A stretch of DNA of 64,000 nucleotides, from assembly GCA_963971405.1 (NCBI GenBank), contig OZ020487.1:22367371-22431370 (forward strand), written 5' to 3'. The stretch comes from Psococerastis gibbosa (lineage: Eukaryota; Arthropoda; Insecta; Psocodea; Psocidae). Position 1 is the first letter of the stretch. Every line of letters starts with the position of its first letter. Positions 12,514-15,500 of the stretch are shown here, piece by piece. The translations under genes were made by a program, and so were the position numbers. Below the pieces are notes generated by a model that saw only the letters and a program-made list of their open reading frames with translations, did not search any database and was not told where the DNA came from.

Positions 12514-15500
12514 GTAGGCATACAGCGGATAGTCTATTTTATGCAATTAGACATACGACTATAAGGTCTATAGCCATACAAAGCATCTCTCACTCTCGGG
12601 TAGGGGTACAGCCTACTGCAACCATTTTGATGCGTTTCTTAAGAGCACACCCACACAAGATTAGGCCTAGGCCCTACATGTTTTTAGCTTTCCTATTTAT
12701 ACGTAGTACGAGTACCTATAAGGAAAGCCTTGTGATGGTTGAAATTTTCGATTTCGGGATTTACACGTTTTGGAGCCCCAGGAACCCAAAAGTGGTTTTA
12801 ACGAAATGTCTGTCTGTTTGTGGGTCAACTGCTCGATAGATTTGGATAAAATTCGGCATGTAGGTCCACAAAAAACTTACCTCGGGGCGGGGGCACGGTC
12901 CATCTTGCCCCCTCCAGGGCAGCTACCCCCTCCCCCTGTATCCGTCCTTACCTCCAGCTACTGAAGGACAATTTTTTGAGAGGCAAGCCTGGCTAAAATA
13001 CTAATAACACTAACTTACTAACCCACTAACTTGCCAAATAATTGTGTTCTTTTTGTTTGTTTATGTTAGGTGCATCCTACTTGACGAAGCCTAGAACTGG
13101 GATTATTCGCCTAGCCTATATCTCAGTTAACAATGGCTAACCTGTTTTGAACTTGAACTTACTTTTTTTTGGGGGGGGGGGGGGGGCTTTGTCATGACAT
13201 TTGACAGGCACCTTAAAATGCAGGTCAATAGACTAGCCAATTATTGTCTACACACAGTATATATATAATAGCCACAATAGTTCTCTTATTATACACAACA
13301 TTAATATCATCCTCACAGGTATTACGAAAGTGCCATCGCACTGTCCAACGAAGCCCAACTTACCAACCTCATCCATGTTTGCGACAATGTTGACCTTGCA
13401 TCAGTTTTGCAGGACTTCGAAAGCTACTATTATGTCCGCTTCCAACGATACCCAAAAATTTGTAAGCGCGTCACCGGTGACGAAGCTCCTTTCTTAACTT
13501 TAAAGAAGTTGCCTCAGCCATCAAGACCTATTCGAAAAACAGGTAAGGCGCTTATTCCACCTACATCAATAGTCAATGGTAAATGTGGTATTGACGTGGT
13601 AGCAGACATTAAAGACAGTCTAAAAATGTCTGCTACCATATTTACTATGACGTAGGTGGAATAAGCTCCTAATTGTAACAGAGTAGCTCCAGTGGTCTAT
13701 GAGGGTCGGTGGACACTGCCAGTGTGCCTAAGGAGAAACATTGATTCTACAGACAAGGATAATAAGTCCAATTTGTGAGCAGCTTCCCTCATTCCTTCGA
13801 CCGAAATTGTACTGGTACCGTACATGAACTGAGAACCAGTAAGACAAATTGACTTTTTGACTGTCATTTGACTTTCAGGCCATTTCTAAAAAATGCTGTA
13901 GACCTGCCGGTGAAGCTAGTTATGTACTTGTCCCAAATCGGTGTTTCACAGTATGGTATTAGATGGTAGTAGTAGTGTTCGTCGGGTTAATAACTACTTA
14001 GGCCTCATTTGGGCCCATAGAGCGACCCCGACTTGACTGTCCTATGCCAGCCCATAGGACAGTGGACCTCCTGATTATAGTGGATTCCGAACCACTTGGG
14101 AAACACAGAGAAGTCACACGATTAGTTCGGAGGTGACCAGGACAAGTCCTACCATGTTTCCCTATCGGCACTGTGCACACGACCAAGTTATCTGCAGCTT
14201 TGAACCTGCTCTGGTCCGCTGGATTCAACATGGTATGGCGGCCGGTGGTATTAGATGGGACGAATGAACCCAAGACAGTGCCATCGAGCTATGACATAAT
14301 ACATAGGAATTATACAATTTGCAGGTTATAGTAATTGGACCAATGATTGTCGAATGGCAGCATATCCCCATTTTGCATTCATGGCCAATCTGTTTTGCAG
14401 AGAAGGTATCAGACATTCTGCACTCGAAGTCCGTGAAACCCAACAGAATCTTAAAACCTGATTGTGGCGGTGACGTTAATGAAACCCCCGAAGATTGTAA
14501 GACAGGAGTGATAGTAGTTCCTGCAGGTCGACCCCTTGTTAAAACTGGACTCGAAGAATTAAAGCCAAAAAGAAAACTAAAGCCTTTAAACGCACTTAGG
14601 CATCATACAACAGAATGGATGGAGATGGCAGAAATAATTACAAAGGTAATGATTCATGAACAAGAGTAAACCGTAGAAGTAAGAATGCATGGGCTCTTTT
14701 TCAATTACATTTACTATTAGCATGTGCTTCCGAACTATGAGCAAAAGCTAAAGAAAAATAGATAGCGCTTGCGGCGCAAGGAAATGCTTTAAATTGTGAA
14801 TACACTCAATACAGCACTCCAACTGAAATTTTTTATGAATAGAAACATAAAGAGCACGATGTGCTCCAATTATGTGAAGTGCAAGCAAATGCTTCTTTTT
14901 ATGCATTCGGCTGATTAAATTTGTTCAATTGGTAATTTCAATTATCCCCCTGCATTAGAAAAGCAAAATTTGTTTAAATATTAATTTAACGAAGACAACC
15001 CTTTCATAAATTTGCGCAGTGCTTCGCTTGAAATACCACACTATGATATTGGCGTATAATAAAGCATGCGACTACTTTAAAGCTCATAGCCGTGATCAAT
15101 CAATTTTATTAAATAAATTGGCCGTCATCATTACTTTCCATTTCCATTTAAGGAAATATTTCTTGAATCACTGGACGTTCATTGGGATGATGTAAAGGGA
15201 CTCGATGAACCAAAACGCCTGCTGAAAGAGGCGGTGGTATACCCCATAAAATACCCAGACTTATTCCAAGGGGTGCTTGCACCGTGGAAAGGACTCTTAC
15301 TCTTTGGACCGCCTGGCACTGGAAAGACACTGCTGGCCAAAGCTGCAGCAACTGAAACATCTACGACCTTCTTTAATATCTCAGCAAGCACTATCATAAG
15401 CAAATGGCGCGGGGATTCAGAGAAGCTGGTCAGAGTAAGATGGAGCATTAACTTAGGCGCTGATTCCACCAACGTCAATAGTGATATTAATGTTTTATGA

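Follow-up and report, generated by a model that had tools for sequence, protein, structure and literature searches.

The question raised by this locus is whether a splice donor can receive a transposable element in its middle and still be used. In the window, i.e., the whole analyzed stretch of 64,000 nucleotides, an earlier note had placed a MITE inside the splice donor of exon B of a katanin-like gene, and this was confirmed by the coordinates, the TAA/TAA duplication and the dispersed copies of the element. The features at the border of exon and intron are as follows:

13319..13542, plus strand: exon B of the LisH/AAA katanin-like gene, with a phase-1 end
13543..14400, plus strand: intron B, whose donor is GTAAGG (13543-13548) and whose acceptor TTTTGCAG has its last base at 14400; the frame is maintained when 13542 is joined to 14401
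13544..13546, plus strand: left target-site duplication TAA, equal to donor positions +2 to +4
13547..13669, plus strand: MITE of 123 bp with the termini GGCGC...GCTCC and an internal deletion compared with copies of up to 142 bp
13670..13672, plus strand: right target-site duplication TAA
14401..14645, plus strand: exon C of the LisH/AAA katanin-like gene, as placed by the gene model

The gene model comprises seven exons within 12443-17398, which give a single open frame of 468 codons and a stop; the start of the gene lies further upstream, outside the model. The predicted protein contains the LisH (2e-4), AAA (1.9e-37) and AAA_lid_3 (1.2e-10) domains in that order, which is the order of a LisH katanin-like AAA protein, and the LisH score is exactly at the cut-off of 21.6 bits. 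Among the best 60 of 286 matches to solved structures, katanin p60 chains match residues 173-467 of the protein, and Cdc48/VCP chains outscore them on the same protein; the gene is presumably KATNAL2-like. The seven-exon frame with the LisH, AAA and lid domains needs the 13542/14401 junction, and the unbroken frame and the domains together suggest that the donor at 13542 is in use in vivo. No Rfam family was found at the gathering score anywhere in the window.

The donor reads CAG|GTAAGG (13540-13548), with the GG of the MITE at positions +5/+6. When the MITE and one TAA are taken out, ACAG|GTAATTGTAACAG is obtained, i.e., CAG|GTAATTG. The other points made earlier about this donor, namely the duplication at +2 to +4, the GG at +5/+6, the empty site GTAATTG and the change of +5 from T to G, are all correct on the sequence. 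The filled donor agrees with CAG|GTAAGT at 8/9 positions, lacking the +6 T, and so does the empty one, lacking the +5 G. The arms of the element (13546-13568 and 13648-13670) are 91% complementary over 23 nt and form its terminal inverted repeats. By these termini and by the 3-bp duplication of the TWA type (TAA/TAA here), the element fits a MITE of PIF/Harbinger-like (PHIS) habit. MITEs of this type are mobilised by a DDE transposase with matching termini (Pfam PF13359). A TA duplication, as in mariner-like elements, was ruled out, since the border indicated by the palindromic ends, and also by the other copies, is GG...CC with flanks of 3 bp.

To place the element in its family, the MITE with short flanks was used as a query against the 409-Mb genome (68 contigs); 40 places, including the window copy, were scored out of 1150 first-look candidates, and the sequences of the other 39 scored loci were fetched for comparison. 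The match to many dispersed copies shows that the MITE is real beyond chance. The fetched copies are mostly 128-142 bp long and, among the 22 matches listed, the alignment of the 123-bp copy to most others needs 8-20 gap positions, and the window copy therefore carries an internal deletion. Over the left 92 bp, it shows 2 substitutions and no gap relative to each of six fetched copies (97.8%), and for this reason the insertion looks young. Three further members of the family lie in the window:

11887..12029, plus strand: third family member, upstream of exon A
15456..15593, plus strand: second family member, in the intron that follows exon D of the katanin-like gene, where it begins at +22; 90.6% self-complementary over 139 nt
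62957..63098, plus strand: nearest family member within the window (94.6% over 92 bp), with GTATGTAAGTAAT as its expected empty site

Ends of the wider superfamily were counted in 264 kb, made up of the window and 20 arbitrarily placed 10-kb pieces. There were 85 of them, 33 in the window and 52 in the other 200 kb, where five Markov-shuffled versions contained 4, 8, 11, 9 and 7 ends. Automatic pairing, which joined the wrong ends in some of the composite elements in the window, gave 51 elements, of which 27 had identical 3-bp flanks and 24 unequal ones. The identical flanks were TAA or TTA in 20 elements and TTT, TAT, ATA or TTC in the other 7. In six of the unequal pairs, from L009-L047 and the window, one flank was TTA and the other TAA; their pairing is plausible, as if the elements had been inverted or recombined between copies. 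Composite MITEs are located at 23958-24732, 36658-37052 and 48667-49042, where related elements are nested and ATTCAAGACTTA precedes the inner one; the same context was seen in the random pieces L052, L056, L058, L062, L063 and L066. Elsewhere in the window, a 464-codon open frame (52-1446) resembles by eye the RNase H end of a non-LTR retrotransposon.

The reading that we prefer, at a probability of roughly 0.75, is that the donor CAG|GTAATTG already existed and that this young-looking, high-copy MITE inserted into its TAA. The 3-bp duplication would have retained GTAA beside the exon and the GG terminus would have become +5/+6, leaving intron B with a usable donor, CAG|GTAAGG, and 126 additional bp. 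The donor would then be older than the insertion, which would have been nearly neutral or, given that the predicted hairpin described below hides +4 to +6, mildly weakening, and was probably tolerated. Such a locus would be a compact example of how a splice signal can outlast the arrival of a transposon thanks to the target-site duplication.

The order of events could also have been different: exon B may once have been longer, and the GTAAGG of the insertion may have captured the junction, the MITE thus creating or shifting the donor and shortening the exon. With the MITE removed, the frame past the junction indeed stays open for 36 codons, and weak phase-1 GT sites, e.g., AATT|GTAACA, lie downstream. 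However, such openness is not rare, as 12% of 35-codon stretches are open in four introns of the katanin-like gene. The read-through has a codon score of -0.14, similar to the average over 554 open intron stretches (-0.11), whereas the final 35 codons of exon B score +0.18. This test is weak, since the whole of exon B (74 codons) scores 0.026 and falls within the intron range (-0.44 to 0.11, the 5-95% range of the open intron stretches, with a small training set), which leaves the two poorly separated. Judged by the splice consensus, CAG|GTAATT would make the better ancestral donor. Judged from the sequence, an older, longer exon B appears unlikely, and the insertion into an existing donor is preferred.

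The presence of the MITE also affects the predicted RNA structure at the junction:

13546..13670, plus strand: predicted RNA hairpin, which base pairs donor positions +4, +5 and +6 with CCU at 13668-13670

The predicted fold of 13543-13672 has an energy of -62.6 kcal/mol (z -10.6), with pairing probabilities of about 1.0 for +5/+6 and 0.87-0.92 for +4. A strong predicted hairpin at the first bases of the intron is by itself the layout of a tailed mirtron. Pairing to the U1 5′ end alone was calculated to change from -8.1 kcal/mol for the empty donor to -11.5 kcal/mol for the filled one (from -9.0 to -12.0 kcal/mol for a longer stretch). The cost of opening positions -3 to +6 is 8.9 kcal/mol with the MITE versus 2.8 kcal/mol at the empty site. 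Net U1 binding in contexts of 40, 86 and 140 nt, as an equilibrium prediction that, like all the folding values here, ignores co-transcriptional order, was -2.6 kcal/mol for this copy, -5.3 kcal/mol for the empty site and +0.7 kcal/mol for a copy with fully paired ends; in a 15-nt context, the corresponding values were -4.7, -6.6 and -1.1 kcal/mol. Predicted net U1 access goes down, not up, because the G residues at +5/+6 are sealed in the base of the hairpin, and the difference between -2.6 and -5.3 kcal/mol argues against a costless insertion. The predicted hairpin questions the claim that the +5 change improved the donor signal. The interpretation in the note, of a constitutive splice signal left unbroken, is supported in part; the hairpin and the target preference of the family described below are additions to it.

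At the third pair of the hairpin, this copy carries a C-U mismatch, which makes opening 3.3 kcal/mol cheaper than for a paired end. The assumption that the mismatch was selected to loosen the hairpin was dropped: an unpaired base occurs within the terminal 5 bp in 13 of the 40 copies, and at the third pair in 5 of them. Such unpaired ends are unremarkable in the family, so no selection is needed to explain this one.

If the hairpin does hide +4 to +6, the donor might be barely used or regulated, with the intron often retained or another donor used in its place. The almost complete predicted pairing of +5/+6 and the raised cost of opening are what one would expect in that case. However, the interference rests on thermodynamic folding, and U1 may already be bound by the time the hairpin is transcribed; moreover, the mismatch eases opening, and an unsystematic look at exon B turned up no better in-phase donor. 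We consider a barely used donor improbable and retain the insertion into an existing donor that stayed usable. An in-phase exonic GTAAGC at 13462 was separately considered as the real donor and rejected: its U1 pairing is only -4.3 kcal/mol, and joining it to exon C leads to an immediate TAG.

It could further be supposed that the MITE is an introner, i.e., that it made intron B, since the target-site duplication contributes part of its 5′ splice site, as in some introner families described in an excerpt of PMC9860276. In an introner, the element is the new intron, with both splice sites in it, in its target-site duplication or in the adjoining exon. The MITE, however, ends without a 3′ splice site and accounts for 123 of the 858 bases of intron B, whose acceptor end lies 731 bases past it. 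Splicing to the nearest AG (13680-13681) would bring an in-frame TAG directly after the junction, and a mini-intron ending at 13681 was rejected for this reason. Nor did other copies behave as introners would: 22 distinct GTAA-flanked ends were collected from 67 loci and the window, one being the window copy, and clear exon support was found at 0 of the other 21, as judged by open-frame length and, for nine copies including L041, also by peptide by eye. An origin of intron B from the MITE is very improbable on this evidence, and an intron older than the MITE is preferred.

Two further loci from this search are described here for completeness. In L025, which is outside the 22 GTAA-flanked ends, no clear exon was seen in the peptide by eye. 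L037, which has a 66-residue open stretch, is a borderline case; its TAA/TAA-flanked copy on the minus strand is separated by roughly 12 bases from a donor-like GAAG|GTAAGC that is read on the other strand.

The choice of target by the family was analyzed from all ends found in the 39 fetched loci, a few of which belong to neighboring elements. The base before TAA was G at 16/32 ends (background 0.177, P 3e-5) and C at 8/32 (background 0.150), both backgrounds being taken from 13,984 sites. Before TTA, C was found at 16/28 ends (background 0.157, P 6e-7), which is the same as G after TAA. In the superfamily of the window and the 200 kb, G preceded TAA at 6/24 ends, near the background, and C at 8/24; C preceded TTA at 27/34, many of these being nested copies in the one repeated context already mentioned. 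As G before TAA is near the background in the wider set, the G bias is ascribed here to the subfamily. The target consensus of the subfamily may be put at about STAAG. GTAAG was the empty site in 6 of the 20 elements with identical TAA/TTA flanks, two of which, composite elements of the window, had probably been paired wrongly, versus 3.3% (0.033) of the TAA sites in 264 kb (P 3e-5). The window copy itself has the target GTAAT, without the preferred G after TAA.

Since the STAAG-like preference overlaps the donor core GTAAG, splice donors are natural targets for this MITE, and because both of its ends begin with GG, GTAAGG is rebuilt in either orientation. For the same two reasons, the donor insertion looks like a predictable outcome of the landing-site taste of the family and not like a new kind of system. 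A rough sum, with about 22 million TAA sites per genome (scaled), a 2.8-fold G bias and tens of thousands of superfamily copies (extrapolated from 264 kb), would place several hundred insertions in 100,000 GTAA donors, provided that every one were tolerated and that the assumed intron number holds; a donor insertion need not be special on such numbers. The preference predicts that introns beginning with GTAAGGCGC recur among donor-proximal insertions genome-wide. If such insertions are common, they would show how the element is tolerated in genes and how intron starts are remodelled. A bolder and rather doubtful extension is that donors are recurrent, partly safe landing sites, and that many introns of this genome begin with a MITE whose hairpin locks +4 to +6, a donor regulation made by transposable elements that decays as the terminal inverted repeats mutate. 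The C-U mismatch of the window copy would then exemplify such decay.

The locus can be compared with several known systems. Transposon termini serve as splice sites in maize Ds and C. elegans Tc1, where new sites are made in exons. As in those cases, the end of an element and its target-site duplication are read as a splice signal here; unlike them, an existing donor appears to have been rebuilt and no new exonic site was made. Among the open-licence PMC papers listed in literature searches, none described, in its title or the start of its abstract, a MITE in an existing donor rebuilt by its own duplication, and a hit in PMC4732748 was unrelated in the passages concerned. The PIF/Harbinger (PHIS) elements include NuwaII, whose targets are given as C|TNA|G in passages of PMC4482050. 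The MITE resembles these elements in its 3-bp TAA/TTA duplication, its terminal inverted repeats and the preferred G after the TNA core. It differs from that account of NuwaII in that G is more frequent than C before TAA in the fetched loci, and in that TAT, ATA, TTT and TTC flanks also occur in the family.

In [D1,2] stwintrons, as outlined in an excerpt of PMC12403724, an intron is inserted between donor positions +1 and +2. There too the donor of an existing intron is split by an insertion, whereas the insert here is a MITE that lies after +4 and is not spliced alone. With the introners, some of which have 5′ splice sites derived from the duplication according to the same partial text of PMC9860276, the MITE shares the nature of a non-autonomous element with terminal inverted repeats whose target-site duplication gives part of the 5′ splice site. 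In contrast to the introners of that account, intron B is very probably older than its MITE, and the MITE gives no 3′ splice site.
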